The notes under the pieces: generated by a model | The model's database searches: none | The model's input: the letters and a program-made list of their open reading frames with translations, nothing else | Told to the model about the DNA's origin: nothing | Virus record (IMG/VR): IMGVR_UViG_3300037628_000326 | Location: 1-64,000 of that record | DNA from: a virus | Strand: one strand, 5' to 3' | Length of the DNA stretch: 64,000 nt | Made by a program: the position numbers and the translations under genes | In this document: piece after piece, positions 9,599 through 56,579 of the stretch | Layout of the letters: the number at the start of each line of letters is the position of its first letter | Numbering within the stretch: position 1 is the stretch's first letter

Positions 9599-10056
9599 GC
9601 GTAGTCCTCCACCGTGATCCAGGCCTCGCCGCCCTCTTCAAGCTGGGCTGCGATTCTTTCGTACAGCCTCTGATAAGCGCCCACCGAAGTCGTGACCATG
9701 CCACGTTCGATTACATTCGACACCTGACCGTCGCCGACCAGGAGGCAGCCATCGGTATCGTCATCCTTGTTGCCCACATGGATGTAAATAAACTGGAAGT
9801 CCGGCACCATCTGCAGCCACAGCATCCCGCGGTGCCAGGGGAAACGCTTCTTGTAGCGCTTGATCATGCCGCCCTCGTCGCGGAACATGATCTGGTATTT
9901 GCCCGGCGGGATTCGGGTCTCGCCCTTGATCTTCGGTTCGTTGAACTGGTCCTCGAGTATGTAGCACAGGAACTCGGGTTCCTCGGTCACATCGAACAAC
10001 GTGCCGAGGGTGGACTCCTCGCCGGATGAGATGCGTCTGTTCAGTAGCTCAAGCAT
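9595..10056 (-). CDS. DUF5675 family protein
   Basis: 153 residues matching the DUF5675 pattern: FLCYILEDQFNEPKIKGETR, then IPPGKYQIMF, then FIYIHVGNKDDDTDGCLLVG. The His/Asn/Asp/Cys-rich motif suggests an active site, but the activity is not established. It lies between the giant virion protein and the holin candidate, where many phages place lysis functions. No other endolysin-like gene is recognised in the window. Confidence 0.75.
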   Translation of the reverse strand: MLELLNRRISSGEESTLGTLFDVTEEPEFLCYILEDQFNEPKIKGETRIPPGKYQIMFRDEGGMIKRYKKRFPWHRGMLWLQMVPDFQFIYIHVGNKDDDTDGCLLVGDGQVSNVIERGMVTTSVGAYQRLYERIAAQLEEGGEAWITVEDYA

Positions 10057-22000: not shown

Positions 22001-23377
22001 AGTTGCCGCCATCGCCGGACCCATATTGATGAAGGCATCCAGTGATCCAAACGCATAGAATTTCAGGCTGTGCGGCTTTACGAGAAGCTCGTTCTCTTTG
22101 AGCTTGCCGGTCTCGGCATCCCAGATATCCTGGGCGATGATCGCCACCGGAGTTTGTGCTGCTACCAGTTCTGTTTCGCCCCGTCCATCAGCAGTCCCGA
22201 GCCACTCCACAAACGCATCCACCGGATGAACGCCCTCAGGTACCCGGTCGGATCCCTCCACAAATCCCCACTCTTTGGCGATCCGGTTATTCTCGATTGA
22301 ATCCTGGATGCGGCCGGTGCCGGTGATCATCTGCTCAGCCGCAGCATTGCGCTCAAGATCTTCCGCGGTGGGCGGATTGCCACCACGCATACCACCGATA
22401 ATCTGCCTCCTGTATTTCGGCAGTTGGCTGTCTAGCGTCTTTGAAAAACCTTCCCCCCAGTTATCCTCTTCGACGCCCTCCCAGGCCGCATCTTCAAGCT
22501 CCTGCATTTTTTGTTTGGCGCGTGGATATTTCTGCTCAAGTACTTCCTGCTTGGACGGCAACCCGAGTATTCCACCACCAGCGGCCTCAGATGTCATCTG
22601 CTCCCATGGCCTGGTCTTATATCTTTCCTGCAGTTCCGCAGCCTCTTCTGCGTCTGGACGCCGGATCATTATCGACTTGCTTGCTTTCGGCTGCTCAGAC
22701 CCGAGCGCCTTCTCGAGTTCATCCAGTTCCTTTGTGAATCCCTCGCCGAACGGCAGGTCCTCACGAGACCAGTTAGCCATGGTCGGCATGCTGGGATCCT
22801 GAGCGAACAGGTAACCGCCTATGACCTGGTCGAAGCGGGACTGGCTATGCCAATCGGCGAAGCTGCGCTCCTCTGGCTCGCCACGGTCCTCGGCCTCTTG
22901 CTTGGATAGTCGGTACGATTCCTTGGCCCACTTCATGTACTCCGGACTATCGGCCGCTGCTCGCTGCAGTCTCCTGTAACGATCGGGATCGACGTTCTTC
23001 AGGTTATGCAACGACTCGCCCAGGAGCGCCTTGCCTTCGTAGCCACTGGCGCCGGCATCCTGAAATTTCTGGTGATTGATGTAGACCGTGGGCTTTTCCG
23101 GGTCGTCGTCGAACTTGGTCTCGCCCCAGCGAAAATCGTCGGGTGCGAACTCAGTGCTCGGATCCGATGCGACATTGACACTGGACAGCAGGCGCTGACG
23201 CAGGCTCGACTCGGCACCCGGAACAGGGTCCAAGTTCTGCACATCGAACTGGTCACCATAGGTGGCCTTCGAATAATCTCCGAACGCCACCGGCACCTGC
23301 TCGCCGTACTTCAGGCCGTTCTCGTCCTCTTCCTCTTCATCTCGAACAGGGAACTGTGCGCCATAAGTCCAAGCCAT
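10049..23377 (-). CDS. Giant polyvalent internal virion protein (4442 residues)
   Basis: A single uninterrupted frame of 13.3 kb. Domains in order: hydrophobic Gly-rich region (about 446-585); inorganic-pyrophosphatase-like polyvalent domain with GVDAYFGP and FDEHKVMVGY (about 750-860); HhH-GPD-like region with LPGIGSK and TIDRWM (about 930-1160); zinc-protease motif HEIAH (about 1541); ADP-ribosyltransferase-like polyvalent region starting KWYRGSE (about 1724-1870); conserved polyvalent region FYSGLARAARN (about 1888-1970); EFQSDWHQQGR to RYSLS region (about 2356-2496); four tandem repeats (about 2650-2970); second metal motif HETVGH (about 3127); coiled coil (about 3466-3590); and an LPD38-like C-terminal region with hydrophobic segment IVAFAATLEILNRF (about 4020). 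Proteins of this type are packaged in podovirus heads and ejected with DNA. Individual enzyme activities are inference. Confidence 0.9.
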   Translation of the reverse strand: MAWTYGAQFPVRDEEEEDENGLKYGEQVPVAFGDYSKATYGDQFDVQNLDPVPGAESSLRQRLLSSVNVASDPSTEFAPDDFRWGETKFDDDPEKPTVYINHQKFQDAGASGYEGKALLGESLHNLKNVDPDRYRRLQRAAADSPEYMKWAKESYRLSKQEAEDRGEPEERSFADWHSQSRFDQVIGGYLFAQDPSMPTMANWSREDLPFGEGFTKELDELEKALGSEQPKASKSIMIRRPDAEEAAELQERYKTRPWEQMTSEAAGGGILGLPSKQEVLEQKYPRAKQKMQELEDAAWEGVEEDNWGEGFSKTLDSQLPKYRRQIIGGMRGGNPPTAEDLERNAAAEQMITGTGRIQDSIENNRIAKEWGFVEGSDRVPEGVHPVDAFVEWLGTADGRGETELVAAQTPVAIIAQDIWDAETGKLKENELLVKPHSLKFYAFGSLDAFINMGPAMAATILTKNPMVGAAIMGSQVYGETYGAMLDRGYSPSQARSAAVFSALAETVTERISLGVLTRNNFTGLKRIFAGAGAEGIQEPITEALQIGYDVGILNDEMTMGEAFMRLVDAGIIGFGVGGGMGASVSALDRASTPAVVEESKYEQHMDALHLSMTKEAQEAEALEVLEANTELLDKVINSQLEDISTEDLAALEEQELIKINDDGTIKALPKARRRVAREQVEVNRRRKKAALRARGVSDEELDPTIEILQMEPAFHAAEVDTDLDATERQKGRGNYRKGRFTWNNIPLAIETPAGETRSGVDEQGRAWSQVMSSGYGYFPSKPGADTVEGEPTEGVDAYFGPDLNTPTVYVINQAKDPSAEAVGENFDEHKVMVGYPSLEAAIEAYQADYAPARDQQVEGISMQPAQFKAWLDLPEHTRPLTLGTREGYEKAPVFATIDETKPTAERYKMRGKKVIGMPAKAGYSLRGVDGQIQKTFDILMDSKLIPDEAWTWYEDSGRKIREIARNDPELIHDVIKILAATSQGVGVGANTTFMIKAAYQIAKGEKIDTGMYPATAVPNIETMRELETKEITNQLPGIGSKVMSFYRNLYDATYNTNLYDSDVTIDRWMVRNLGFKGDTVEGTQYDYARKVFQDATARYNAANGTNWLPRHAQAALWVHERSQDSLAKKSGAYAGKVTPVDAFAEHIEAVTARVTHEAVPSKATKEGRQVEALPREEKQELGRRQREALAENNTHVVMEALGVPLYNAATAIGGYQGMINPNEISNIVMVGGAEIDRPTVDIFSTIMQYIYTQDAVPWFRAERKAKTSEATGDFGRKYTQGINWDLQGPLNEEQETELFDALRKALGPDAGFSMVGEDQLVIIDFKDEKGVTVSGLKPAEFIEKIDKILDNIGADLGVVKSYSFGAEGNYLTHDWETDPNGQKLEAAIEDYAGTRGPPDLLERVRGWRKSAQGITRDFLKADARPRAGAAAPVPVARLDDRSATEDAVFQRFGSVDRTRDTTEELKFYDLTPVVENPEITDRLADQFGYTIEVFSFEAENFRLPRLGKKNYEEGTVWIYDPAAEHGSFKDETYTRAWRVSHEIAHGITERLMQERYGDSKRYGRLGRTMMGERGKPPKRVEVELEPLTLMQAQRAIEWEDVAFRVQRILLDKMGIRIPDSVFNQEYNVNLSDAVFRTVTGDFADAGEFGFRPSVIAPSIKAVLTGIERTEQALAEDQGREATEGIDLATYNPINDEALQESIDLQSRAPVDKPLFSVVPGVPADTKWYRGSEHEQIRLHRETGIVHASTSEKTASAFGPVSEVTLHVQNPFDYENPEHAKALKAQFRTNAQLMKFAQALDVVHGGKRTWLGGEGTMDDVREYFNVGLEMGNYQTLESPAVLEAIRGMGHDSVYMVEDDFGPKGIAVFDAALMSRDAPLFATIEDEVFPGFYSGLARAARNLKQEKGTGKQMLAMLTKMPGVKAEELDWTGVPEYLRAKETVTKDQLIAFIDANGVRIEETTLGYRGRGRGDMPEDVDWKRVQDAYEAGEIGGVMDLKDSVHDIGANTLTDEQMEVIEDKGDEYVTWESMTEGQKNQFSRIVYKVDATGAATLGTEYGGDSVSLPGGKNYREILLRLPEKSIDRPTVSTATGWPTDAAVRDLDRQMREKFNEGMDVEQRDLLTGGSSVEILGMLDDWEARLGLDVTMARSQIHRPVSMTVLQLEQGPGTDDLSDLIITELQDTPLADSEWGWVREDARFEFENLDADQYDQVYELSRRHGVAVVSGAPEETVPRPDKVNGTIQFPPGYSQDTWELVNKKLYEIGLTDQNATWEDEALQFYIDGVSPQMLDRITYAIRPYGLAALQAPTTTPPVKQAPAGRRPIETYHAAHWGSYANILASIRVDDRIGEDGERIMFVEEFQSDWHQQGRTSGYRDRPKGIMPERDDLKAIKKPLTDTADYWEIRTKVGQFVVNITATDGVLPDEDAAIDEGYQRLTQEQEIRTRIEREERGAVPDAPFKGNAWAELAIKRVMRLAAEEGYDSVAWTTGEQQAERYSLSRVLNTIKVLPAALEGRPDVRIVWLDPHMGNSIQLHVTADGMIDGSDQAEFDKKKLSEVVGTPMAKQIMETEESLEIAAENLDVGGQGMKSFYDRTIRNLVSKVVKKLDKGVKTSSTRIDTSEGRGGPYTVGRWPGSPPPGTPVVQVARVQHAQMADLAAAARPIDEADYGTDRQITAQNNFTYTLQQILSPEKWENFEDYAHRATPEEMVSYGMQLAAEDAPPVIVTHGEMGQLGLLAENARPRNAADEDSVRQQAAQTAFFDELYEYISEDQMSVLDDISSDRDQGQLELIDTGLSMVVGQSPDVEAPAAPRTVISDEDYSRVQVAGRAARPTETADEGSTEQNEAFDRFTKLLEEVLPTYAWETWEEDTDAEHVSVYDAIKLGIALAEEEAFSITPEAVARLENTAQNARRIDDEDPDSQRARTSMEAFSAELNDLLPRLSWERWVDREPRSVGDDIDAGLRMARMFAGMPDAAVSAPVRVVGDQWGIKNKADEWTGPYSSEEEAIEGAAKRDLEDLEAVHLVDISDQMRERLITDGLSLFAVSRQPAAGVPIANLQSVISEILDLYPGSPNVKIAPTEAHLPRRQLLEIKHAGMEGRIGGMFDPETGDVYLIAGNLRNMKQAVEIYLHETVGHYGVRSILGAEYDTIMDQVWKSHKQKVMAAARRNGLDVRIPSQRRIAAEEFIAYRAQRVLAGQKLPAREASLLQRLVEAIRIAIARLRGVQMSDADIQRLIRKARMFVATPANKSPGLLPARKAPVMFANLWKAINNDRVSNSGSAAMYRKELNAQIRAGNITEADAEPLVFYLAEAAYIDKAGLLNQIRELGNRVAFHVDEYNGRADAIESGDLFENFTIEEGSKTSRAWNYLVYKAQDKFIDLLNVQKAIELQTGRPISEEVDTYLAEELFHGRVKSRVDHFEKDYIRPLTEAIDDSEYTWDEVEWFLYARHAPEANRRLYRINRSGALRRARDRVKKKAEAKLENRIIRIDENKAKQRNKIEADHTQRLAVIESEYRSQMRRSKERQKKRREGIEAAKVRKIQRAESRKNQRIAQLESKYKYVRADYELTYQAEIEEADVSFREREQERVKEDPGLLALSGMSNADAAFAMEALREKGDISQLEAIASRVDSMTARNREIMVNEGLEEQSTIDAWEKAYNHYVPLKGWKDGPMNTTFFPKKGKGYDTGGKLNQRRLGRRSMAANILANIVAQHQSTVVMAEKAKVGRTLLKMVQENPNPDLWTANQIETKKRLDPKSGLVVTAVDPTYKLRDNVLRVKIEGKDYHITFNEESDVAMRIATSMKNLSSQEMNWMFTSLLKLNRILSAVNTSYNPEFIVSNLVRDLQTAMINLNSTDAQNMKMAILKDVFKAHRGIRRFLELPSFKDPESADYWREQFEEYRDLGGQVGWLDNYKDVQDLEQSLYRQMQDKSSGTMSWSMLRKLGRFIEAENQAVENAVRLSAFKHAKTAGLSPRKSASLAKNLTVNFNRKGEIGTQLNAVYLFYNASIQGMAVMYKAAKSPKVRKVMYGIVAFAATLEILNRFMAGDDDDGENRYDKIPAWVKERNMIIMIPERFRSQSPDDFTEHYITIPLPYGYNMLHVLGQKIGGIIDYTGIGNKREWSPLEDTFEILAAALGSFNPIGTGPTPLQTISPTILSPFVQISENIAWHGGPVMPEANKYDPAPEPESQQYYRSVPKHAIALAEFLNKLGGGTKARPAPISPLDISPETIQLIEDFATGGLGRFVTNSIELGVMAQEGEIDWRKVPFARRFVGTTDERAVSNRYYENRTKIEYAVQEIKVAEEELKLSGTQAERADAIKNRARIFEQYRADAALKTALRLVQTGLTDLNALRKAVRQSKRDDDWKKEKEEQIELRKTKLMNKFNQRYNQIMEKRRQRREETAMNPQLPGKQRLAAVQQFNKAGYPATANLIRLLPVNPGADFVERLNA

Positions 23378-23379
23378 AA

Positions 23380-24750
23380 TTACCGCACCAGTTGACTCTC
23401 AGATACCTTGGTCGCCTTACCGTTCTTCAGCATCCAGTATTCGGTGATGCCGGCGTCATTCGTGATTGCCGTGGCAATTCCCTCGACCAGTCTTGATTCA
23501 TCAGGGACTGCTCCATCAGAGGAATTGCCAGCCATAAACGAATCCGCATACTCAGCAATCAGCCTGCGCTTCATAGTCAGCCGCTCTTCGGTGTCGGCCA
23601 AGTTGTAGTCCGTGTCTTTGAGTAATTCCGGAACAGCAAGCTTGGTCGCGTCGCGAACTGCCTCAGCCCGAGTGTAATTCTTGACACGATTCGCATACTC
23701 CAGCCCGTCCGACTTGGCCTTCCAGAGGTCCGTGCCTGTCTTCGGCGTGCCGTCCGGCCATGTGCTGTGGACCGCCATGTACATGTTCATGCGAACCTCA
23801 CTGTCGAGGCGCCGCTGCTTATTCGCAATCGCGTCCTTGTGGGCCTTCTGCGGCTTGCCATTGACCATGACACGACGGCCTTCATCGGTCTGGGCGTTGT
23901 AGGTAAACCAGTAGCCATCTTCTCCGATGTAATTCTCGAATGTTCCGATAGGCTTATCGAGTGCTACCTGCACACGCTGCCGCTCAAGTGACAATCGCTC
24001 AAGGGTGGCCGACCGATCAAACTTCTTATCAAGCCTACCTTCTGCTCGCTCCTGGGCAGCAATCCGCCGCTCTTCTGCCTGCGCTAAGCGCTGCTCATGC
24101 TCGACATCACGTTGCCTGCCAGTAGCCATAGCCGCCTTGGCTGATCGGCCGACCGCCTCGAATGAACTCAATTCTGCCGGCGCCGACGCCAGGTTCAGCC
24201 CGAACTCGAGCAGGAACTCGCCAATCTTTTCTTTCTTGGTACCGCGGGGCGGTGGCCTCCCAGTCTGCTGCTCGTAAAGGTCCTCCACGGACCTGCCAGT
24301 ATTTTGCTCAAGGAGATCAATCACCTTCGAGATCGATTCGGGATCCGCTTCCTTGTACATGTCGCCAAACCCCATCTGCGGCGGCCCCTCGTCTTTGCGC
24401 GGCTTCGGTGCTACGCCAGTCGTCGCCGGCTGAGTGGCCGGAGGCGCTGCTCCTGGTGCCGGCGGTTGCATGAATGGCATATCGAATGCCGCTGGCTGTG
24501 CCCCTTGAGCCGTCGCCAACTGTTCTGGCGTGGGTTCAGGAGCAAACGCGCCCGAGTAATCAGTTGCCCCTTGCGGAAAGGCCGCCTGCGGTGGCGCCGC
24601 TGCAGGCTGTGGTCCAAACGCCGGCTGCGGCGCACCAGGTGCACCGGGCGTTCCAGGTATTGCCGCTGGTGGTATGCCTTGCCCTGGTCCGGCAAGCGCC
24701 TGCAGCGTGCGGGAATTCGCCTCAATCCATTGCTCTAATTGCTGTCCCAT
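23380..24750 (-). CDS. Internal virion protein, Pro/Ala-rich N-terminus
   Basis: 456 residues. The first 140 are a disordered Pro/Ala/Gln/Gly-rich region (GTPGAPGAPQPAFGPQPA). The rest is helical, including EHEQRLAQAEERRIAAQERA at about 215-235. It lies directly upstream (transcriptionally) of the giant protein and downstream of another internal protein, as in podovirus core-protein cassettes. No specific family recognised. Confidence 0.65.
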   Translation of the reverse strand: MGQQLEQWIEANSRTLQALAGPGQGIPPAAIPGTPGAPGAPQPAFGPQPAAAPPQAAFPQGATDYSGAFAPEPTPEQLATAQGAQPAAFDMPFMQPPAPGAAPPATQPATTGVAPKPRKDEGPPQMGFGDMYKEADPESISKVIDLLEQNTGRSVEDLYEQQTGRPPPRGTKKEKIGEFLLEFGLNLASAPAELSSFEAVGRSAKAAMATGRQRDVEHEQRLAQAEERRIAAQERAEGRLDKKFDRSATLERLSLERQRVQVALDKPIGTFENYIGEDGYWFTYNAQTDEGRRVMVNGKPQKAHKDAIANKQRRLDSEVRMNMYMAVHSTWPDGTPKTGTDLWKAKSDGLEYANRVKNYTRAEAVRDATKLAVPELLKDTDYNLADTEERLTMKRRLIAEYADSFMAGNSSDGAVPDESRLVEGIATAITNDAGITEYWMLKNGKATKVSESQLVR

Positions 24751-31371: not shown

Positions 31372-32648
31372 TCGACTATCTCCATCTCAAAGAAGGCACC
31401 GTTCGCTTGTGTCGTCTGGATGCCGGCCTGCGTCAATATGTAGCATTCAAAATAATCGGTACCGTTGCCGGTTGTATTGATGATTCCAGTCTGCGCCGTA
31501 ACCCAACCGTGATCACTTCCAGTTCCGGACTGATTGTCGTGACTAAAAAGCGGAATCCAACTCGCTTGACCAGGATCGATTGTTCCCGCAGTGGCGCCAT
31601 TCAGCCTGATCAGAGCATGCTTCACACCAACACTGCTGCCGCCTTGCCCCAACTGCGGATTGAAGGCAACACGAATTTTAATTTTCGTGACGCCTGACGG
31701 GACAACGAAGCGGCTGTTCAGCGTCGAAATGTCATGGATGCTATCGGTATCGAAAACCTCCGCATTGTAGGCGACCGCTGCCGCTGCATTCGTTGGTCCG
31801 GTGAATGTGGCGTTCGGCGCATCATCTCTTGCCCAAAGAATAGATCCGGTCTGGTACGCCTTACATCCTCGATACGCAGGCTGGCTGGGCGTCGTGGTCG
31901 CCAATTTCAGCGGCGTCACAAACTTGGTGTCGTTAGTTCCAGCATCCACCTCAGTCTGATCGGCAATAGCTGAAAGACCTGTCAGAGATTCAGTTGCGGC
32001 ACGACCCTCGAGCTTCAGCGGACTAACGATCTTGTCGTCAAGTGAACCATCGTCAGTCTCCGCTTGTGTCGCGATCTCAGCGACACCCGCTATGTCCTCT
32101 GTCGCCTGGTTCACAGCCGGGAACGCCGTCAGCTTCAGCGGAGTCACGAAGCGCTCGTCATCCGTGCCGGCATCTACCTCGGCCTGGGTGGCGATCTCAG
32201 CAACACCTTGCACTTCCTCGGTGGCCTGGGGGACATCGCCGATACTGAAAACGTCATCGGCAACCGGGTCCACAACTACCGCCACCCGTGTCGCAGGCCT
32301 TACGATCACGCCCGCATTGGCGACGGTTTTGATCGTCATGTCAAAGCCAGGACTGCTCTCGTTCGATACGATGTAGAGCTTCGAGGTACTCGGCACGATG
32401 ATCTCTTTGTCTTCGCCAGGGTTACCGGTGAGAGCAATGATCGCGTTCCTTGACTGATCAACATCACCGTTCTGTGAGAGAAGCGTTACCGGATTTGTGG
32501 CCGGCGTGACATCGAGGTCCAGGCGAGCAGCGATCGCATCCTCAAGCAGGTCGATGGCGCTTGCGTTGTTGATGTCGCCCCAGATATTCTGGTTGCCGCC
32601 AGTCTCCTGAAGGACGAGCCGTAGTAATGATGTGAATGTGTCAGCCAT
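31368..32648 (-). CDS. Tail fibre with three collar repeats
   Basis: 426 residues. The N-terminal 130 form the attachment region. Three repeats follow, at about 137-170, 181-216 and 219-251, on the scheme GVAEIATQAEVDAGTDD then FVTPLKL, the well-known phage fibre repeat. The C-terminal part (about 260-426) is a beta-sandwich with GVTKIKIRVAFNPQLGQGGS and TGIINTTGNGTDYFECYIL, resembling a TNF/C1q-like trimeric head. Likely the receptor-binding fibre. Confidence 0.8.
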   Translation of the reverse strand: MADTFTSLLRLVLQETGGNQNIWGDINNASAIDLLEDAIAARLDLDVTPATNPVTLLSQNGDVDQSRNAIIALTGNPGEDKEIIVPSTSKLYIVSNESSPGFDMTIKTVANAGVIVRPATRVAVVVDPVADDVFSIGDVPQATEEVQGVAEIATQAEVDAGTDDERFVTPLKLTAFPAVNQATEDIAGVAEIATQAETDDGSLDDKIVSPLKLEGRAATESLTGLSAIADQTEVDAGTNDTKFVTPLKLATTTPSQPAYRGCKAYQTGSILWARDDAPNATFTGPTNAAAAVAYNAEVFDTDSIHDISTLNSRFVVPSGVTKIKIRVAFNPQLGQGGSSVGVKHALIRLNGATAGTIDPGQASWIPLFSHDNQSGTGSDHGWVTAQTGIINTTGNGTDYFECYILTQAGIQTTQANGAFFEMEIVE

Positions 32649-33124
32649 TAGCCTGATGTCCTTATGATTGCGAGGGTCGGATCAGTCGGGTCCGGAAAGC
32701 GCACAGTAAATGTCCCGTTGTTGATGGCGCGGGGCGTTCTAAAACTGATGACCCACATGACCTTATTCTGCTGTGGTCCTGCTGTAGTGTTATAGATGAC
32801 GGCGCCCAGCGCTGCCTCAGGATTTGATGGGCCTATTCCCCAGGTCGCTCCTGGCCCGAAGACCAAGTCAGCGAAATCGATCGATGGCCGCTCCGGTTCA
32901 CCCGGAGTGTAGATAATTGTCTGCGTCAGTTGCTCGCCGCCGGCTGTGTACCCGTTGCCGACAAGCTCGTCAGTGATCGATGCCTGGTCATCGACGGTTA
33001 CCGGATCGATATCCGCCAGCGTCGTGTACATGGCAAAAAACAGCACATCGTTCCTGACATCATGGATGCCCTCGATGCACTGATCGTTGAGGAACTGGAA
33101 GGCTGTGCCGGTTTTAATACTCAT
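32648..33124 (-). CDS. Hypothetical virion protein
   Basis: 158 residues, beta-rich (GAVIYNTTAGPQQNKVMWVI). It shares one base with the fibre gene downstream and the adaptor gene upstream. Probably a small tail protein; no family recognised. Confidence 0.55.
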   Translation of the reverse strand: MSIKTGTAFQFLNDQCIEGIHDVRNDVLFFAMYTTLADIDPVTVDDQASITDELVGNGYTAGGEQLTQTIIYTPGEPERPSIDFADLVFGPGATWGIGPSNPEAALGAVIYNTTAGPQQNKVMWVISFRTPRAINNGTFTVRFPDPTDPTLAIIRTSG

Positions 33125-34500
33125 CAGACCAGACTCGTCGTTTTAGCTGAGGATTTGACTGGACTATAATCGCCGCGCCACTGTCGTCGGAGCTCGAGCT
33201 TTCTCGCCGGCATCACTTCAGTGTAGCTCTGCCGCCATGCCTCAAGGTCTGCGGGATCGGAGATCAGGAACTCGTCAGAGGCGATCAGGCAAGCGTACAA
33301 GAGCAGATCGCCGGCATTGTCACCAAGCCATGTGTTCTGGTTACCCGGCGCCAGGGCGTCAGGTGTTTGTATCTGACGCAGTTCGAAGCCATACGCGAGG
33401 TCCGGTGGCGGCACCACGAAGAACTCGGTCTCGGTAAACTCAGCGTAGTATTTCGGTTCGGCCGTCGCGGTCTCATCAGGTTCGAAGTCAAGACACCACT
33501 CGTAGGTCCTGCGCTCAAGGTAGCGTCTCAGTCCAGCTGAGCCAGATGTTGGAAATGCCTGAGTCGGAGCCGTGAAATTGGCTGTCGTGTATCGAGCCGT
33601 GCCGACCGTAACGCGAACTTCATCGATAATCGCATCTGCATCTGAGGTGTTTGGACTCGCGCCACTGTTATTTCTTGAGCCGATGTTGATCGCCACCGCT
33701 CCGGTGCCTCCGATCGTTATTCCCGTTACATCAAATGTGGCACCAGATTTCACGCCATCTACATGCGCGAACAGATCGTTGCCTAGCCGCGTGATGGCAA
33801 TGTGCTGAAAAGTGCTGTTCGGACCCAACGAGCCAAAGGTCCTGAAGACATTAAAACCGCCGCCTGCAGTTGAATAATTAAACGTCAAAGAGCCGTTTGC
33901 ACTTTCCACTTGCCAGTTCGTGGTCCCGGTACCCCCATCACCGTGATTGATGTAACCATGGCCGCCAACCTGGTCAAATGTGTTGATCTCCATCTCAATC
34001 GTGAAATCGCCTGCGAGTACCGGAAAGGCTGCATTGTGAGGAATTTCGAGAAAGTCCAAAGGATCACCAGTATCGGCATCGAGCGCCGCTGTGCCGAATT
34101 TTTTGATTAGAGTCTTTAAGTCGATGGCTCCCTGGAAATTCACTGTGTTATTGAGTATCGAGTCATCGACCGCAACCGTGGCGCCATTCACACCATCCAT
34201 GCTCAGCAACAGCACTACGTCGGCAAAGTCAGCATCAGCACTAGCGTTAGGATCTCGGAGATGCAGCGACCTGGTTCCCTGCCAGTCCGATGGCTTGATC
34301 GCTTGCTCGTACTGATCCGCTGTCAAAGAGCCTGTGACCACCCGGTCGAAGATTTCAAAGTTCAGATCAGTTGCCAGGCGACTCTCGCCCATGGAAACGA
34401 TCGTACTCTGATTGTCGATGAACTCCTCACTGCTCTCCTCGAGCCAGGCACTGAGGGCCGCGATCAGGTCGTCGTAACTAAATGATGTCGATGAAGGCAT
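33124..34500 (-). CDS. Tail adaptor with inserted LamG-like lectin domain
   Basis: 458 residues. The ends form one family. N-terminal FSYDDLIAALSAWLEESSEE and RLATDLNFEIFDRVV (1-85) pair with C-terminal RYLERRTYEWCLDFEPD, KYYAEFTETEFFVVPPPDLA and GDLLLYACLIASDEFL (about 335-458), the two halves of a podophage adaptor that is normally about 220 residues. Between them (about 95-325) lies a concanavalin/LamG-like jelly roll: DFADVVLLLSMDGVNG, FGTAALDAD, FTIEMEINTFD, FQHIAITRLGNDLFAHVDG, AIIDEVRVTVGTARY. The insertion would display a glycan-binding-type module on the neck or tail. Confidence 0.75.
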   Translation of the reverse strand: MPSSTSFSYDDLIAALSAWLEESSEEFIDNQSTIVSMGESRLATDLNFEIFDRVVTGSLTADQYEQAIKPSDWQGTRSLHLRDPNASADADFADVVLLLSMDGVNGATVAVDDSILNNTVNFQGAIDLKTLIKKFGTAALDADTGDPLDFLEIPHNAAFPVLAGDFTIEMEINTFDQVGGHGYINHGDGGTGTTNWQVESANGSLTFNYSTAGGGFNVFRTFGSLGPNSTFQHIAITRLGNDLFAHVDGVKSGATFDVTGITIGGTGAVAINIGSRNNSGASPNTSDADAIIDEVRVTVGTARYTTANFTAPTQAFPTSGSAGLRRYLERRTYEWCLDFEPDETATAEPKYYAEFTETEFFVVPPPDLAYGFELRQIQTPDALAPGNQNTWLGDNAGDLLLYACLIASDEFLISDPADLEAWRQSYTEVMPARKLELRRQWRGDYSPVKSSAKTTSLV

Positions 34501-39916: not shown

Positions 39917-40831
39917 TTAGGTACCACCTCCTGGTGATCCATAGGCACCACGCCAATCAGACCAGCCGTAGCTGTAGCGCTCACGAGCCTTGTAGCGCAG
40001 GTTGCCAGTCTCGAAGTCGCCTTCGATTCCTCGCTGCACATTCTTGCGCACAAAATGCTTTGTGCCATCAGGGCAATCGGTCAAAAGAAACCAGGCATCC
40101 GGATCGGTGAATCGGTGATTCACGCAGAACCCGTCGGCCACTGTTCCCAGTGTGTTGATTGCATTGATGTCGTTATCGCCTGTGCCGGTTCGATATGGCG
40201 ACTGCAGGATTCGTGTTGCCACGAATTGCAGTTGCGTCGGCACCGCCATCTTCTTGATCTGACAAGCGATCGGGATTCCCCGATCATCGTCAAACTCAGA
40301 GATGTCAATGGCTGCTTGCTCCAATGAAGCCTCGGACAGATCAGCCGCGACTGCCAGGGTGTTAGCCTGGACGCCACCGCCGAACTGCGGATGCGATGCA
40401 CTAAACAGCGGCACACCGTCGCCACCTGGGAAGGTAGCGTCGAAGCCGTTGTTAAAGATGTCCGCACCCTTAACTTCTTTGGTCTGTTGCAGTGAGCGAG
40501 CGAGCGCTCGAGCGTATTTGCTACCGATAGAGCCGTACAAGCCGTCCTCTTCAGCTTCCTCGGTTATTGAGAAAGCCAATGCGATCGTCTCATGCGTATA
40601 TCGGGCAACGTAACTCTCAGCCCCCTCGTCGTACGCGACACCCTCACCTTCAGGCTTGACCGGTGCTGCGTCGAAGCCAGCGAGCAGGACATCTTCCTCG
40701 AAGGCCTTGACCGACCGTTCGATTGCGAAAAGATATTTCCACTCTTCGGGGTAGCGTGCGTACTCCATGCCAAACACCGTGTTCAGCCCTTCCTGTAGCT
40801 GCTTCCTAAAGTCAGCGCGATTCATAGCCAT
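39917..40831 (-). CDS. Major capsid protein (gpT-like)
   Basis: 304 residues. The pattern NRADFRKQLQEGLNTVF (4-20), YTHETIALAFSIT (78-90), RALARSLQQTKEVKGADIF (108-126), VPLFSASHPQFGGG (140-153), DLSEASLEQAAIDIS (164-178) and the end SYGWSDWRGAYGS matches the Mu gpT / podophage major head subunit family, an HK97-fold protein. No protease or delta domain is evident; the separate scaffold gene lies upstream. Segments of this protein recur in two small Tat-signal proteins (52050 and 56149). Confidence 0.9.
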   Translation of the reverse strand: MAMNRADFRKQLQEGLNTVFGMEYARYPEEWKYLFAIERSVKAFEEDVLLAGFDAAPVKPEGEGVAYDEGAESYVARYTHETIALAFSITEEAEEDGLYGSIGSKYARALARSLQQTKEVKGADIFNNGFDATFPGGDGVPLFSASHPQFGGGVQANTLAVAADLSEASLEQAAIDISEFDDDRGIPIACQIKKMAVPTQLQFVATRILQSPYRTGTGDNDINAINTLGTVADGFCVNHRFTDPDAWFLLTDCPDGTKHFVRKNVQRGIEGDFETGNLRYKARERYSYGWSDWRGAYGSPGGGT

Positions 40832-44541: not shown

Positions 44542-44760
44542 TTACCGTACTTCTCGCTGCAGCAACTCGTGGATCGCCTGTTGCTGTCCCTGACCTCCGG
44601 CATACAGTCGCCTGATGTAGGCGAGCAGTTCCCGAAAGCCCATGTTCAATTCCTTCGCAGCCGCTGCGAATGGCCGTGGTTGTAGCGGTGGCCGCACTCC
44701 TCGGCGTTGCAGGAATGCCCTCGCCGCTCTGATCTCAGCTGGCGTTGGCGCTTTGGCCAC
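44542..44760 (-). CDS. Small helical protein after portal
   Basis: 72 residues, basic and helical (AEIRAARAFLQRRGVRP, then MGFRELLAYIRRLYAGG). It overlaps the portal 3' end by 26 bp. It may be a head-assembly accessory; no family recognised. Confidence 0.55.
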   Translation of the reverse strand: MAKAPTPAEIRAARAFLQRRGVRPPLQPRPFAAAAKELNMGFRELLAYIRRLYAGGQGQQQAIHELLQREVR

Positions 44761-47269
44761 TTGACTTCTTCTTCGGCGGCCTGTTGGTCTCGCGTTCCGG
44801 AGTCCGTGACCTGCTCGACGGTGCCTGCACTAACGCTCTGCGTTTAGCCGCAGCGAGCTTTTCCTCGCGTTCGATGTCGGCTGCGTTTTCGGTGTTCTTG
44901 CGTCTCTCCTCGGCCGTGAAGGCCTCCTGCTTCTGCACCATCTCCTGCGCATGCTTGTCGGCTGCCTGGCGCTGCTTCTCCTGGTGCTCGGCTTTCATGC
45001 GCTCGAGCTTCTGGATGGTCTCAGCGTCCTTGGCGTCCTCGATCGCCTTGGCCTCAGCCTCTTCAGGTGAAAGCGGCGGGCCGCCTCGCTCTTGCTCTTC
45101 CTGCTGCTTCTTCTGCCGCTGCTTGGCAGCGATGGCCTGGCTGAGCATCTGCTCGATCTCAGGTGGCAGGTCCTCGGTCTCGGCCTCGTCGTACAGGTCG
45201 AACGGTGGCAGGTCCATGCCCAGCATCTGCTCGACTTCCTTGCGGTACTGGCTGACCAGGTGCTCCATCTTGTGCGACATGAACACCGGCTCGACCTGCT
45301 TCCATAGGTCCGGATCACCGATCGCCATCATCTCGGCAAATGTCTGATGTACCGCCATGTGGGCATCATCGTCTTGGGTGGTCATCACCTGCACCGGCAA
45401 CCCGGTGGCCATCATCTGGTTCTCGCTGACTGGGTCCAAGTTCTTCGGCGCCGAATCCTCCGGCAGTATCTTGTCGATCTCGGGTACCTTGAGCGCCTGC
45501 AACATGCGACGGTGCGCTTCCTTGCGGCCCTTCTCGCCGTACAGGTCAGGTGCCGACTCGACAAGCTCAAGCACGCCTTGCGATTGGGCGATGCGCTGCA
45601 CGCTTGAGAAAATGTTCGGGTCCGATACCGGGATGACGTCGACGCGGCCATCGAAGTCCTGCTTCAGCACCACCTTGCTCTCGCCGCCAAGCTCGTACGG
45701 GTACTCGTCCCGATCCATAAGCTCGTAGTTCAACTGCGCCATCAGCGAAAGCTCTTCGCGCAGCGCTTTGTGCAGGCGCTTGTGGATGGCTGACTGCGGC
45801 TTGCCGGCCTGTTCGATCAGCGCCAGTGTAGTGCCGACGGGTCCGCGGTTGTCGGCGCCACCGGTAATGACCTCGGTGACCCCCATGAATTCCTTGCCAC
45901 GCTGGATCAGGTTCTCGTAGGTAGTGGCCAGGGCTGGGCTTGGCTCGTTGACCGGCAGCGGCAGGAACGCCTGCTGCAGGTCCTCAGGTGACATGTCGAT
46001 GTCGCGGAACTCACCCAGCGTGAAGCGATGCTCGCCACTTATCTTGGCTTTCTTGGACTTGAAGCCACCAGGGAGATTAGATAGTGCTGCTGTATCAAGT
46101 ATTGCGCGTAGAGATCCAGACGCTGCTTTCGCCAGAGCGCCGATGATATGGAGATACCCGAAACCATAGAAACCCAGACCAGGCAGGAACTTGTAGTGAG
46201 AGAACCAGACTCGCTTGCGGTACTTCTGGTCGCCTTTCTTCCAGTTGCGCCGGACTGACAGGACCTCACGGCTCTCCTCCTCGATGGTGACGATGTATGG
46301 CGGCGCGATGTCTGTGTCGCCGACCTCCGGATCCTCGAACGGCATCTCATAATCGATGTGGTACTCGTAAAGCTTGTAGACCTCGTCGTCCTCGTGGACC
46401 ACCGGTACGCGATCGTCGGCCACATCCTCCATCGTGTCATCGGCAAAGCTCACGTTCTTATCGGACGCGATCTGCGGGCTGGGGATCAGGAAGGCATCGG
46501 CCAGGAACTGCCCGTCGACCTGCGCGCGCTTGATGTTGTTTCCTTCCATGGTGTATTCATGCGCGTACCTGGTCGCCGACTGCAGGTCCTTGCAGTAGTA
46601 CGGCACAATGAAGTCCTCGGCCGTCACGTACCGGGCGGTGGTCATCTCCGTGACCGGGTCGATGTAAATCTTCTTGAACGCCGATCCCGACATCGGCAGG
46701 TAGAACAGCATCTGATCAACGTCCCAGAAGTAACCCTGGTCCTCGACCGTCAACTGGTAATTCATGTAGTCCTCGAGGCGCTCGGCTTGCTGCTCTTTCT
46801 CCTCGGTGACCTCGCCCAGGATGGCTGCCTTCACTGGGCCGTCGGCAGGGAAAAGCTCCTCGATCGCTCGCGACTGGAACTGCACGACTGCTTCGCCAAT
46901 GAGCGGGTCCGTGACGGTAGCAGCGCCGTCGAACGGAGTGTCAGATTCCGGTAGGTCCTTGAGACCGAGGAGCTCAAGCCCGTCCTTGATGCGGCGGAAA
47001 TGGTGTTCGCGGACTTGCTTGTCCAAGACGACGTACTCAAGGAACTGGTCGGCGATGGCGTGGCGTTCGGTACTGGATAACTGGTCAGCGAGATTCGCGT
47101 GCCAGTCCGGATCCATCTCTGGGGCTTCGAAGGGTACGGCGTCGTCAGGCTCAAGATCGACGATCGTGTCTTCACCCTGCTGGGTGATTACTGCGCCATT
47201 CGCCCGTTGAACTTTTGGTTGTGTTGCTGGTAGCTCTTCAACAAACGAGCCAACGTCTTCACGCGCCAT
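44735..47269 (-). CDS. Portal protein
   Basis: 844 residues from ATG 47269; the frame is open to 47311. A P22/podovirus-type portal: LPESDTPFDGAATVTDPLIG, FYLPMSGSAFKKIYIDP, NLPGGFKSKKAKISGEHRF, GVTEVITGGADNRGPVGTTL and IHKRLHKALREELSLMAQL are spread along the core. The C-terminal 170 residues are a long charged coiled coil and basic tail (QRQKKQQEEQERGG, KLERMKAEHQEKQRQAADKH), resembling the portal barrel. It forms the 12-mer DNA channel. Confidence 0.85.
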   Translation of the reverse strand: MAREDVGSFVEELPATQPKVQRANGAVITQQGEDTIVDLEPDDAVPFEAPEMDPDWHANLADQLSSTERHAIADQFLEYVVLDKQVREHHFRRIKDGLELLGLKDLPESDTPFDGAATVTDPLIGEAVVQFQSRAIEELFPADGPVKAAILGEVTEEKEQQAERLEDYMNYQLTVEDQGYFWDVDQMLFYLPMSGSAFKKIYIDPVTEMTTARYVTAEDFIVPYYCKDLQSATRYAHEYTMEGNNIKRAQVDGQFLADAFLIPSPQIASDKNVSFADDTMEDVADDRVPVVHEDDEVYKLYEYHIDYEMPFEDPEVGDTDIAPPYIVTIEEESREVLSVRRNWKKGDQKYRKRVWFSHYKFLPGLGFYGFGYLHIIGALAKAASGSLRAILDTAALSNLPGGFKSKKAKISGEHRFTLGEFRDIDMSPEDLQQAFLPLPVNEPSPALATTYENLIQRGKEFMGVTEVITGGADNRGPVGTTLALIEQAGKPQSAIHKRLHKALREELSLMAQLNYELMDRDEYPYELGGESKVVLKQDFDGRVDVIPVSDPNIFSSVQRIAQSQGVLELVESAPDLYGEKGRKEAHRRMLQALKVPEIDKILPEDSAPKNLDPVSENQMMATGLPVQVMTTQDDDAHMAVHQTFAEMMAIGDPDLWKQVEPVFMSHKMEHLVSQYRKEVEQMLGMDLPPFDLYDEAETEDLPPEIEQMLSQAIAAKQRQKKQQEEQERGGPPLSPEEAEAKAIEDAKDAETIQKLERMKAEHQEKQRQAADKHAQEMVQKQEAFTAEERRKNTENAADIEREEKLAAAKRRALVQAPSSRSRTPERETNRPPKKKSSGQSANAS

Positions 47270-50030: not shown

Positions 50031-50450
50031 TCAACCGTTCAGATAGTACCGCTCGAACAGATCCAAAGATGCCGTTGGCATGGTCACGGGTATGGCTTTC
50101 ATTCCCAGATTCAGCAGTACGCGGGTCCTGTGGCGACCATCCCTGAATCCGATACGCCCACCTGCAGAGACGTATACGTTGGCGACTTCGATGGCTTCAT
50201 TCTCGGCAAGGAATTTCTCAAAGAGTTCAAAACGATGATCGCCCAGGTATTTGCCATTGCCATTCGACAAATCTGGTGCGATATAGCCTGGTGCCGTGGA
50301 CCAGCCAGCTTCAAAATCCTCGGCTTTGATCAGGGCCATTTCTAATCCGAACTGCTTACGCAATCGCGAATAAGCGTTCTTACCTGCTCGCGATCTCACG
50401 AACTTCCGCTCTCCGATTGTCGGTACATCGAGCACCAGGAAATCAGCCAT
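50031..50450 (-). CDS. ParB/sulfiredoxin-like fold protein
   Basis: 139 residues from ATG 50450, overlapping TerL by 8 bp. NVYVSAGGRIGFRDGRHRTR, then VLLNLGMKAIPVTMP, is the ParB/Srx GxxxxxDGRHR signature. In ParB-like proteins this pocket binds nucleotide (CTPase or nuclease). Stand-alone phage versions are often of unknown function. Its location just after TerL suggests a link to DNA packaging or processing. The terminator at 49908 follows. Confidence 0.65.
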   Translation of the reverse strand: MADFLVLDVPTIGERKFVRSRAGKNAYSRLRKQFGLEMALIKAEDFEAGWSTAPGYIAPDLSNGNGKYLGDHRFELFEKFLAENEAIEVANVYVSAGGRIGFRDGRHRTRVLLNLGMKAIPVTMPTASLDLFERYYLNG

Positions 50451-52047
50451 ACGGCGACTTCGGCTTCGGCCTGCTCCAGAGACTAAGCTCGTTGCCCTTC
50501 TCATCATCCGGTAGCTCGATGTCGCCCATCCGCCGCATGAACGCCCAGGCGATCACGCAGGTGGCGACCAGGTCATCATGCTCAACCAGCGGGAACTTGG
50601 CGCACTGGCTGATGACATCGAACGCCCAGTCCCTCGAGACGTACCAGACCAATCCGGAGCGGAGGATGCCAGAGACCATGTGCGCTCGGTAGGCGAGGTC
50701 CTCGGGGCCGGCCTTGACTTTCCACACTGGGATGCCGCCGGCTTCGAACTCCTGAATCAGGCTGATGCCCGAGGCCTTGTCCTCGATCAGCGTGTGGTCA
50801 GGATTCCAGCCCTTCTCGTGGCGGATCGCCGATTCGCGAAGCTCTCCGAACTCCATGCGCTCGTTCATTCGCTCGAGCAGCATGGCATTGAGCTTTACAT
50901 CCTCCTGCCGGCCGGTGTGCGAGTGAAAGAACAGACCCCAGCTGGTGCGCGCGGAGTAGTCATTCTCCTGCCCTTTCTTGAACGCCGTGTCATACACCGT
51001 GATGATCTGCTCCCAGTCCGGATACGGCATCTGCTCGCCGGCCTTGGGATGATTCGGCGGGTACGCCCAGTTCTGCCACCACTTGCGCTTCAGGATCAAA
51101 CCGCCGCCGGCCTCCGGGTCCTGGTTGTACTGGGCGTGATAGTCGACGGTACCCATGGCCGACTTCTCTGTCTTGGTCTCCTCCTCGCCGAAGCGCTGTG
51201 GATTCAGCAGCACCTTGGGCTTCTGCCGCTCGTCCTCGTAGATCGGCTCGACCTCGTCCTTGCGCATCTGCTCGTAGTCGAGGTTCTTGCCCTTGGGATT
51301 CGCGAATGTCACGCAGTGGCGCTTCGGGTCGTACTCGTTCGGCAGCATCAGCACTACCCAGCGCCCAGCCTCGCCGTCCAAGATGTGGCCGACCAGGTCC
51401 ATATCGTGAGACCGCTGGCAGATGATGACCTTCTGGCCTGTGGTTGGGTCATTTAGACGGGATCGCCACGAGTTGTCGTACCAGGACAGGGTGGAGTGGC
51501 GCCTCGGGTCCGAGTGAATATCTGACATGTTGTGCGGGTCATCGATGCACAGCACATCGCCGCCCTCTCCGGTGGTCTTGCCGCCGACCGAGGTCGAGAT
51601 GCGGTAGCCGTGCTTGTCATTGACATAGCGGTGCTTCTGGTTCTGCCCCGGATCCAGATAGAACTTGCCGCCGTAGCGTTCCTGGTACCAGCCAGACTGG
51701 ATGATGTCGCGCGCCTTGACCGCATCACGCAGCGCTAGGTCGTGCGAGTAGCTCGAGTACATGAACTGGATTTCTGGTTCATCGGCCCACCACCAGGTTG
51801 GCCAGATGACTGAGACCGTCAGCGACTTGGTCTGCCGGGGTGGAACATTGATGATCAGGTTGCGGATGTCGCCCAGCGTGACGTACGCCAGGTGATCGCA
51901 GATGGCATCGATGTGCCAGTTGTTCTTGAACTCCCGAGCTTCGACCAGCGGCCAGACTTGCGGGACGTAGCGCCTCAGGTCACGCCGCAGCCATTCGGCC
52001 TCCATCTCCGTGAAGGTGGCCTGCTGCTGCGTCTGGTTCAACGACAT
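50443..52047 (-). CDS. terL: Terminase large subunit
   Basis: 534 residues. The ATPase domain has Walker A VPPRQTKS (about 68-75) and Walker B VLCIDDPHN (about 164-172). The RNase H-like nuclease domain has VYDTAFKKG (about 350), LIEDKASG (about 415) and EHDDLVATC (about 489), supplying the acidic triad. It packages DNA into the procapsid through the portal and cuts it. TerS is about 7 kb away (59186-59851), an unusual separation. Confidence 0.9.
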   Translation of the reverse strand: MSLNQTQQQATFTEMEAEWLRRDLRRYVPQVWPLVEAREFKNNWHIDAICDHLAYVTLGDIRNLIINVPPRQTKSLTVSVIWPTWWWADEPEIQFMYSSYSHDLALRDAVKARDIIQSGWYQERYGGKFYLDPGQNQKHRYVNDKHGYRISTSVGGKTTGEGGDVLCIDDPHNMSDIHSDPRRHSTLSWYDNSWRSRLNDPTTGQKVIICQRSHDMDLVGHILDGEAGRWVVLMLPNEYDPKRHCVTFANPKGKNLDYEQMRKDEVEPIYEDERQKPKVLLNPQRFGEEETKTEKSAMGTVDYHAQYNQDPEAGGGLILKRKWWQNWAYPPNHPKAGEQMPYPDWEQIITVYDTAFKKGQENDYSARTSWGLFFHSHTGRQEDVKLNAMLLERMNERMEFGELRESAIRHEKGWNPDHTLIEDKASGISLIQEFEAGGIPVWKVKAGPEDLAYRAHMVSGILRSGLVWYVSRDWAFDVISQCAKFPLVEHDDLVATCVIAWAFMRRMGDIELPDDEKGNELSLWSRPKPKSPYG

Positions 52048-52049
52048 CG

Positions 52050-52406
52050 CTAAACACGGTCAGGGCTGCCCCCACCCCCGACCGATCTCCGTGCGCCCTC
52101 GCTCGAATAGAATTCATTGATGCCGGCCTGCTCGACGCTGTCGTAATTCAACGTCATCTCCAAGGTATCACCGAACGCCCGATTGAACACGTTGGCTGCC
52201 ATGACCTCCCTAGTCTGCATCATCGACCTGGCCAGCGCCGCGGCCATGCGCTGTCCATCCATGCCTGGCGTGGCAAGCGCGTAGGTCTTGTGCGTGTACC
52301 CCATCGGTTGCCACTCGTTGGCTGACAGATAAGGATTCGCCGCGCCTGGCAAGGCAGCGCTCACCGCGGCAGCGACCGCGCCCTTGATGAATGTGCGCCT
52401 CTTCAC
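52050..52406 (-). CDS. Tat-signal protein carrying capsid-derived segments (A)
   Basis: 118 residues from GTG 52406, coupled to the upstream TGA as GTGA. The N-terminus KRRTFIKGAVAAAVSAALPG (2-21) is a twin-arginine-type signal. The rest follows the major capsid protein in order: YTHKTYALA (37-45) matches MCP 78-86; ALARSMMQTREV and NVFNRAF (57-78) match MCP 109-130 with 13 of 22 identical; INEFYSSE then GGGG match MCP 139-154. A gap of about 11 residues separates the first two blocks. It is too short to form a capsid subunit. Function unknown. No longer in-frame start keeps a natural N-terminus. Confidence 0.7.
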   Translation of the reverse strand: MKRRTFIKGAVAAAVSAALPGAANPYLSANEWQPMGYTHKTYALATPGMDGQRMAAALARSMMQTREVMAANVFNRAFGDTLEMTLNYDSVEQAGINEFYSSEGARRSVGGGGSPDRV

Positions 52407-53333: not shown

Positions 53334-53891
53334 TTACGAACAATCAGCAACCACCACGGGTGGCTGCACATTGCCAAACCATGCGACCAGGTCGCTCGGC
53401 ACGCCGTAGTGGCCATTGACTGTCTGGTTCGGATCACACTGCGTACCGGCCGGCACAGTGCCAACGGCCAGCAGGATGTACTTGTCTTTCTGCTTCACGA
53501 CATCGAACGCCGTCAGGTTCTGCACCGTCAGCATTGTCGGCGGCATCGGCACCAGCGGCGGTATGAGCTTGCTGACCTCGTTGCTGAAGTCGCTCTCCTG
53601 CACCGGATTGGCGCTATTGAATGCCGTCGTTACGAAGAAGTACGTCGTCCCCTCAGCGAGGCCTGGCACCACAAATGTCGTCGTCGTCGGATTGTTGATC
53701 GTGATGCTGACATCGCCATACGGTCCACCCTGCACAAGGCCGGCGTAAATCTTGAACCCGGCGAGATCAGTCAGCGCTGACCCGTCAGTGTTCTGCGTCG
53801 GTGCCGTCCAGGACAGCGTTGCGTCGCCGGCATGCGTAATTTGAGAGAACGCCAGTACTGCTAAAGCCGCTAAAATTGCTAATCGTTTCAT
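53334..53891 (-). CDS. Secreted fibronectin type III domain protein
   Basis: 185 residues. Sec signal peptide MKRLAILAALAVLAFSQITHA, then one FN3 domain (about 25-105): ATLSWTAPTQNTDGSALTDL, GFKIYAGLV, TTTFVVPGLAEGTTYFFVTT, SDFSNEVSKL. A second short beta segment follows (VQNLTAFDVVKQKDKYILLA). FN3 modules in phages are usually on virions, so an exported one may act at the cell envelope. It overlaps the next gene as ATGA. Confidence 0.7.
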   Translation of the reverse strand: MKRLAILAALAVLAFSQITHAGDATLSWTAPTQNTDGSALTDLAGFKIYAGLVQGGPYGDVSITINNPTTTTFVVPGLAEGTTYFFVTTAFNSANPVQESDFSNEVSKLIPPLVPMPPTMLTVQNLTAFDVVKQKDKYILLAVGTVPAGTQCDPNQTVNGHYGVPSDLVAWFGNVQPPVVVADCS

Positions 53892-55730: not shown

Positions 55731-56152
55731 TGCACGATGTTCCCGTCTTTGGCCAGCGGGTTCTGGTCAGCGCAGCCCGTGCTGTGCAACTGTCCGTAGC
55801 TCGCACCGCAGCAACTGCAGGTCTTCGGCAGGCCGTCGCAGCCTATGTTCACCGGGTGGTTGCCATCGCAGTCATAGCAATACGGTGCCTTCATGGGGCT
55901 GTTCTGGTGATGTTCTGGTACGTTGGGCCCGGCGAGTTGTGTTTCAGGCCACCCTGGTGGCCGCTTTTGAGGCAATTCTGCCCGATTTACGGTGATTGGG
56001 AGCGAATGATGCTGCCTGGCGAGTAGTCCGACCCAGTCCTCAGGGACCTCTACATCCTCCCCTTCGACGATCACAGCCACCTCGACGCCACGTGTATGCA
56101 TGACGTCGATCTGCCCGTCGTCAACGTAGATCAGGACCTTGGGGGTAATCAT
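55727..56152 (-). CDS. Zinc-ribbon-containing hypothetical protein
   Basis: 141 residues. The C-terminal part has two Cys pairs, YCYDCDGNHP and CSCCGASYGQ, suggesting a zinc ribbon. The N-terminal part is a short beta domain (PKVLIYVDDGQIDVM). The middle is Pro/Gln-rich. Function unknown. Confidence 0.6.
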   Translation of the reverse strand: MITPKVLIYVDDGQIDVMHTRGVEVAVIVEGEDVEVPEDWVGLLARQHHSLPITVNRAELPQKRPPGWPETQLAGPNVPEHHQNSPMKAPYCYDCDGNHPVNIGCDGLPKTCSCCGASYGQLHSTGCADQNPLAKDGNIVQ

Positions 56153-56511
56153 CCGGGCTTTGGCCAGTCGTCAGGCTCGTAATCGGCGTACACCTCCTTG
56201 AATGCTTTATTGAGGCCATCGGCCATCTGCTGTGAGAACTCGGACCTGGTCAGGATACCGCCGCGCTTCTTGACGTCTACGCACAACTGCTCGAGTGATG
56301 CCTCGGTCAGGTCGTACGGTATGGTCGCGCCTTCAGCTTTGAGCGGCGCCAGGCCGAAGCCTTCGGTCAGGTCATGGTGTGCGGCATCGTGCAGCAGGGC
56401 TGGATGTTTCATGCTGCCCAGCGCCACACCGTCATCAGGAATGAGCTTCTCGCTCACTACCGCAGCGGTGGCTACGCCGGCCAGGCGCTTCAGGAATCCT
56501 CGTCTCTTCAT
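56149..56511 (-). CDS. Tat-signal protein carrying capsid-derived segments (B)
   Basis: 120 residues from ATG 56511. The N-terminus MKRRGFLKRLAGVATAAVV carries the canonical twin-arginine consensus RRGFLK. Three segments align to the phage's own major capsid protein but out of order: GFGLAPLKAEG (51-61) to MCP 52-62; DLTEASLEQLCVDV (67-80) to MCP 164-177; and RSEFSQQMADGLNKAF...W (89-116) to MCP 5-31, with 12 of 28 positions identical. So a rearranged capsid mosaic is fused to an export-type signal. ATG overlaps the downstream gene as ATGA. Function unknown. Confidence 0.7.
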   Translation of the reverse strand: MKRRGFLKRLAGVATAAVVSEKLIPDDGVALGSMKHPALLHDAAHHDLTEGFGLAPLKAEGATIPYDLTEASLEQLCVDVKKRGGILTRSEFSQQMADGLNKAFKEVYADYEPDDWPKPG

Positions 56512-56539
56512 GTCGTGACCTCGTCTGGACTTGAACGAC

Positions 56540-56579
56540 CGTTCGGTTCTCGTTCGCGTTTCGTTCAGCTTTCGTTCGG
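56540..56579. repeat. Four 11-bp iterons (CGTTC)
   Basis: CGTTC occurs at 56540, 56551, 56562 and 56573, each 11 bases apart, about one helical turn. The units are CGTTCGGTTCT, CGTTCGCGTTT, CGTTCAGCTTT and CGTTCGGTCCC. The array spans the gap upstream of Tat protein B and runs into the 3' end of the preceding gene. The CCGTTCG core also occurs in the palindrome at 518-533. Confidence 0.6.

Follow-up and report, generated by a model that had tools for sequence, protein, structure and literature searches.

Several bacterial defence systems detect the phage major capsid protein (MCP), and in two described ones capsid sequence is what triggers the response. CapRel is activated by newly made MCP (PMC9712102). 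Sau-Thoeris responds to the capsid protein in its hexameric form; both E-loop and P-loop matter, and one of the capsid mutants that escape is changed in the E-loop (PMC11312562). Capsid sequence is likewise the common element of the two small phage proteins described here, A and B, but where those triggers are whole MCPs, A and B are separate leader-bearing fragments, for which antagonism of such systems is suggested by analogy. With respect to export, the Tat pathway moves signal-less partners as hitchhikers, as in PaoABC, where the Tat signal of one partner carries the others (PMC4273604); the analogy to A and B is a mechanistic one only. Tab, the tail assembly blocker, is also a phage-encoded accessory protein and acts on a virion protein of a rival (PMC10884400), but Tab is a prophage product directed against the tape measure protein, whereas blocking by A and B is a proposal by analogy. 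Finally, T4 RI is a periplasmic antiholin with a cleavable signal peptide (PMC8385771), and it serves as the comparison for a periplasmic regulator. Neither an equivalent design (Tat leader plus capsid fragments) nor exported capsid-mimic proteins were found in the databases and open-access papers searched.

The window, by which we mean the whole stretch of viral DNA analyzed (64,000 nucleotides), encodes both proteins close to its terminase genes (Table 1). Protein A lies directly upstream of TerL, its GTG start overlapping the stop of an upstream 83-aa gene (GTGA), and protein B is located between TerS and TerL, its stop overlapping the ATG of the next gene. The source of their modules is the group of Phage_capsid_4 and Mu gpT-like MCPs (PF25209, PF10124; PHROG 371), to which the MCP of the window belongs. 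In contrast to these, A and B have only 118 to 120 residues, bear leaders and cover only a minor part of the MCP, with nothing from beyond about position 181, and the segments of B are permuted; A and B are not capsid proteins. As judged from their sequences, modular, permuted and exchanged MCP pieces behind twin-arginine-type leaders form an accessory phage protein family, and we consider this RR-leader-plus-MCP-module architecture, together with the capsid origin of the A/B family, as close to certain.

Table 1. Coordinates of proteins A and B, their modules and reference genes in the window
Feature	Coordinates	Strand	Sequence and MCP counterpart	Remarks
MCP (major capsid protein)	39917..40831	minus		304 aa; Pfam Phage_capsid_4 52.3 bits, Mu-like gpT 25.7 bits
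TerL (terminase large subunit)	50443..52047	minus		synteny anchor
Protein A gene	52050..52406	minus		118 aa; GTG start 52406, TAG stop 52050; purifying selection
Protein A tail	52053..52106	minus	SSEGARRSVGGGGSPDRV	last 18 residues; abuts TerL; not capsid-derived
Protein A module d	52173..52256	minus	GQRMAAALARSMMQTREVMAANVFNRAF = MCP helix about 102-130	
Protein A module c	52272..52298	minus	YTHKTYALA = MCP YTHETIALA (about 78-86)	
Protein A leader	52335..52406	minus	VKRRTFIKGAVAAAVSAALPGAAN	twin-arginine type; uncharged run 22
Protein B gene	56149..56511	minus		120 aa; MCP modules e, b, f, a in permuted order behind RR leader; purifying selection
Protein B module a	56164..56250	minus	TRSEFSQQMADGLNKAFKEVYADYEPDDW = MCP N-terminus, about 4-31	
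Protein B module f	56272..56310	minus	LTEASLEQLCVDV = MCP LSEASLEQAAIDI (about 164-176)	
Protein B module b	56311..56361	minus	GFGLAPLKAEGATIPYD = MCP about 51-67	
Protein B module e	56401..56436	minus	DDGVALGSMKHP = MCP GDGVPLFSASHP (about 137-148)	by eye; weak by HMM in B
Protein B leader	56452..56511	minus	MKRRGFLKRLAGVATAAVVS	twin-arginine-like; short uncharged run (11)
Conserved leader DNA before B	56512..56576	minus	palindrome GAACGGTCGTTC	almost identical in sister phage without B

The sequence-only reading had taken the 118-residue frame led by KRRTFIKG for a piece of the phage's own capsid protein, in unchanged order, joined to an export-type leader. The frame exists, the motif lies within its twin-arginine-type leader (also given as KRRTFIKGAVAAAVSAALPGAA), and the fusion was read correctly. 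Against its own MCP, protein A reaches a Smith-Waterman local score of 97, compared with a maximum of 56 in 2,000 shuffles and with 43 for the next-best ORF of the window. Using an HMM built from 126 MCPs, protein A scores 31.7 bits over positions 64-135 and protein B 31.2 bits, far above the best value (5.9 bits) among 4,600 shuffles made of A and similar proteins, which shows the common descent of these segments. The count of 13 identities in 22 positions of one helix is exact (ALARSMMQTREVMAANVFNRAF versus ALARSLQQTKEVKGADIFNNGF). A further match had been seen in GGGG, which is spurious: it belongs to the tail that abuts TerL, and we reject it as capsid homology because the DNA of this tail, upstream of TerL, is also retained in phages without A. 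The G-rich stretch at 52050-52108 (minus), read as SGEGARRSVGGGGSPDRV, is kept with or without A and may be a mini-ORF or a DNA element. An extra f module noticed by eye in protein A (LNYDSVEQAGINEFY) has 3 of 13 identities to the phage's own MCP and is not claimed.

Searching 50,697 phage records with protein A (tblastn) gave six matches, five of them annotated as capsid or head proteins; the sixth is a "hypothetical protein" whose coordinates fall inside an MCP gene also found by the MCP search. Protein B had no match in the same records, which are those of named phages, and scans of genome contigs yielded no prophage or cellular homologues, their single match (L261) being a full-length MCP. 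Neither A nor B has a Pfam capsid match, and both resemble the Phage_capsid_4 model in segments only, not over its full length; this independent model does match the relative L131 (E = 8e-4, under the curated cut-off), which also scores on the Tat model. No DNA-level similarity is left between the genes of protein A and the MCP, and a recent DNA copy of the latter is thereby ruled out as the source. When the mature parts of A, B and their relatives are compared with the ORFs of more than 110 aa in 18 records, they match MCPs and nothing else, save in one case: the RR-leader ORF of G004 at 12914-13336 (L217) resembles, in its mature part, the virion gene that follows the MCP gene (score 72, shuffle maximum 48), so the phenomenon may extend beyond the MCP.

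Protein B differs from A in the order of its parts. Its HMM segments run 52-74, 166-181 and then 4-31, which places the capsid N-terminus at the C-terminal end of B, and A and B draw on almost nonoverlapping parts of the MCP. Colinearity, then, stands for protein A and does not extend to the family, in which modules often change order and pass from gene to gene. In viral contigs, an RR leader and MCP modules occur together in 24 distinct small ORFs from 17 records (HMM segments with E below 0.02), and the related phages keep the capsid similarity along with the gene. HMM segments are out of MCP order in 8 of the 24, for instance 256-290 before 4-42 (L041, G004) and 128-152 before 103-135 (L130, G007), and by eye L105, L106 and L112 are permuted as well; in these, the helix precedes a segment resembling YTHKTY or YTYRTY. 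L112 and L104 combine an RR leader with a segment like the MCP C-terminus, which in L104 was seen by eye at a nonsignificant HMM score. In L085 and L088, where no protein B was found, the b module sits in the A-locus gene, so modules seem to move between genes. Two further ORFs (L001 4938-5189 and L099 7945-8337) lack an RR leader and instead end in a hydrophobic helix, preceded by the C-terminal module of the MCP. G005 60-539 joins an RR leader and, by eye, e- and f-like sequences to a non-MCP segment with CxxC, and RR-leader proteins of 166 to 233 aa without a detectable virion-protein match occur at G002 44734-45531, G010 32575-33276 and G011 13335-13919.

The leaders resemble those of Tat substrates (PF10518, TIGR01409) in sharing (K/N/D/T)RRx(F/L)(L/I) followed by an uncharged, Ala-rich stretch, but most lie just under the curated cut-offs, and the cargo is a capsid peptide instead of a folded enzyme. 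Protein A scores 20.6 against 22.7 (PF10518) and 15.2 against 16.7 (TIGR01409), protein B, with its MKRRGFLKRLAG leader, 14.3 against 16.7, and L131 21.5 against 22.7; L130, of the same architecture, passes TIGR01409 (20.9 against 16.7). RRx(F/L)(L/I) is found near the N-terminus of each of the 28 ORFs examined, a set for which the motif was part of the selection, and RR is invariant in alignments A3 and A5. Of the uncharged residues after RR, which should number about 13 or more in a Tat substrate, protein A has 22, most relatives 13 to 22, and the window's B and its near homologues only 11. The RR leader pattern occurs in 24 of 11,778 small ORFs (six-frame set, 18 genomes), as against 24 of 26 small ORFs with short MCP modules (a wider set, MCP fragments left out), the other two ending in a hydrophobic helix. 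This contrast supports envelope targeting, and real Tat or membrane targeting of the family proteins is, as predicted from these leaders, likely.

With respect to gain and loss, dN/dS is mostly 0.3 to 0.6 for both A and B, indicating purifying selection, while the sister phage G001 (MCP 98% and TerL 95% identical) has neither and otherwise keeps the TerS-TerL gene order of the window. A and B therefore look functional but accessory or dispensable, and genes of the family come and go as cassettes. Of the roles listed by the sequence-only reading (decoy, receptor mimic, regulator of assembly, domesticated paralogue), that of an essential assembly regulator is argued against by the absence of both genes despite 98% MCP identity. 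At the B locus the edges are precise: G001 and the window match as far as the last base ahead of the ATG, and G001 resumes at the next gene; the conserved leader DNA upstream of B is possibly a regulatory element; at the A locus, neighboring small genes are missing from G001 as well. No such proteins were seen in G003, G006, G016 and G017, some of these records being partial.

Nine genomes encode two or three family proteins each. Within them, 2 of 13 protein pairs share MCP positions (9 in one pair, 11 in the other), compared with 81 of 177 pairs between genomes. An overlap as low as that observed within genomes arose in 85 of 20,000 permutations, in a test that ignores shared ancestry, which inflates the result, and that counts one G002 protein without HMM coverage as nonoverlapping by default. 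Different genomes reach nonoverlap through different module combinations, and MCP positions of about 191-250 appear by HMM in none of the family proteins, although this stretch may be less conserved and could be missed by the HMM. The phage's own capsid is also not the nearest relative of every module: the b module is nearer, on average, to a different MCP lineage (<46% identical to the own one) in 14 of 14 cases, and for f and a the own lineage comes closest, so that the mosaic mixes sources. The b modules probably stem from one ancestral capture.

Capsid mimicry in conflict with the host or a rival is the likeliest reason for this design, and by analogy with the capsid-triggered defences the family proteins would be capsid mimics directed to the cell envelope, probably serving as decoys for whatever binds capsid protein, be it a defence sensor or a rival. 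Their modules would capture partners that otherwise attach to nascent or assembling capsid protein, whether host defence sensors or factors of a rival or satellite, and the Tat leader would carry the bound partner to or across the membrane by hitchhiker export, blunting capsid recognition. Accessory and variable mimics of capsid segments would fit antagonists of capsid sensors, and hitchhiker carriage of signal-less partners would explain the leader. Module-shuffled, envelope-targeted capsid mimics acting on capsid-binding proteins are the best explanation overall, to which we give a little less than even credence. More tentatively, we propose that capsid sequence of the own and other lineages, dismembered, shuffled and distributed almost without overlap over two or three exported or membrane-anchored proteins, amounts to modular mimicry directed at capsid-binding host or rival proteins. 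The decoy mechanism itself, drawn by analogy, is doubtful for the A/B family: a mimic of a cytoplasmic sensor's target should stay cytoplasmic, hitchhiker export being only a way round this, and targeting is weakened by the leader of B, which is short and under the Tat cut-offs. If the proteins are decoys, they would form a new counter-defence class pointing to which capsid surfaces are recognized, and A and B are small proteins that can be tested directly.

The main rival to the decoy reading is that the modules are dominant-negative capsid pieces which poison head assembly of co-infecting or superinfecting phages, kept in store or tethered at the membrane by their leader. Such a role would suit modules that come from MCP parts making lattice contacts by HK97-fold analogy (N-arm, E-loop, spine helix), the central stretch of about 191-250 never being detected, as well as the b modules nearer to another lineage, and Tab sets a precedent. 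Yet assembly is cytoplasmic whereas the leader exports, modules f and a, closest to the own lineage, would harm the phage's own capsid, and the 14 b modules probably go back to one ancestor; we consider assembly poisoning unlikely, though if real it would be a novel way for phages to compete. Anchored by the leader, the capsid-like modules could instead dock in the inner membrane and there help to nucleate or hold procapsids, as both leader types, including the two C-terminal helices, point to the membrane and A and B lie beside or between the terminase genes. A Tat topology would, however, place the modules in the periplasm, and the sister phage and the four further genomes without such proteins count against docking, making it a distinctly unlikely explanation. 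The A region encodes small membrane-like proteins and an fn3 protein that looks secreted, which, along with the signal peptide of T4 RI, would agree with a periplasmic regulator of lysis or superinfection that uses capsid sequence as a mere binding module, but this leaves the capsid source of nearly all modules, and their partitioning, unexplained and is improbable.

Two rivals deny the family any function or any capsid origin. Illegitimate recombination can produce ORFs in which MCP fragments are joined to a leader and then drift, and the family ORFs are indeed mosaic, variable and missing from close relatives. That they are nonfunctional debris is nevertheless very improbable: there are 24 open, RR-conserved ORFs in 17 records, the dN/dS values and the start and stop overlaps that couple the genes speak against drift, and with no DNA similarity to the MCP left the ORFs are old, yet their modules are conserved. 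Chance similarity of alanine-rich helices is hardly credible. The relative L106 does give a subthreshold AAA_25 match as well, but real proteins reach up to 48 bits where same-composition shuffles stop at 5.9, and several different MCP segments recur beyond the alanine-rich helix; for protein A, the shuffle controls of alignment and HMM rule chance out. Permuted virion-protein modules behind an export leader represent an unusual gene-origin route in phages.

AlphaFold models of A and B contain helices only and are unreliable (mean pLDDT of 51), too uncertain for fold comparison, so no binding surface can be argued from them. A PDB sequence search with the MCP returned only chance cellulase-like and similar matches, and the domain names used above (N-arm, E-loop, spine) are therefore given by analogy. 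The annotated genes of the window include RecT, YqaJ exonuclease, SSB, RusA, a DNA methyltransferase and TerS. A gene at 53334-53891 (minus), encoding a signal-peptide-like N-terminus and an fn3 domain, is conserved between TerS and TerL in relatives, and an open frame of 4,449 residues extends over 10052-23398 (minus).
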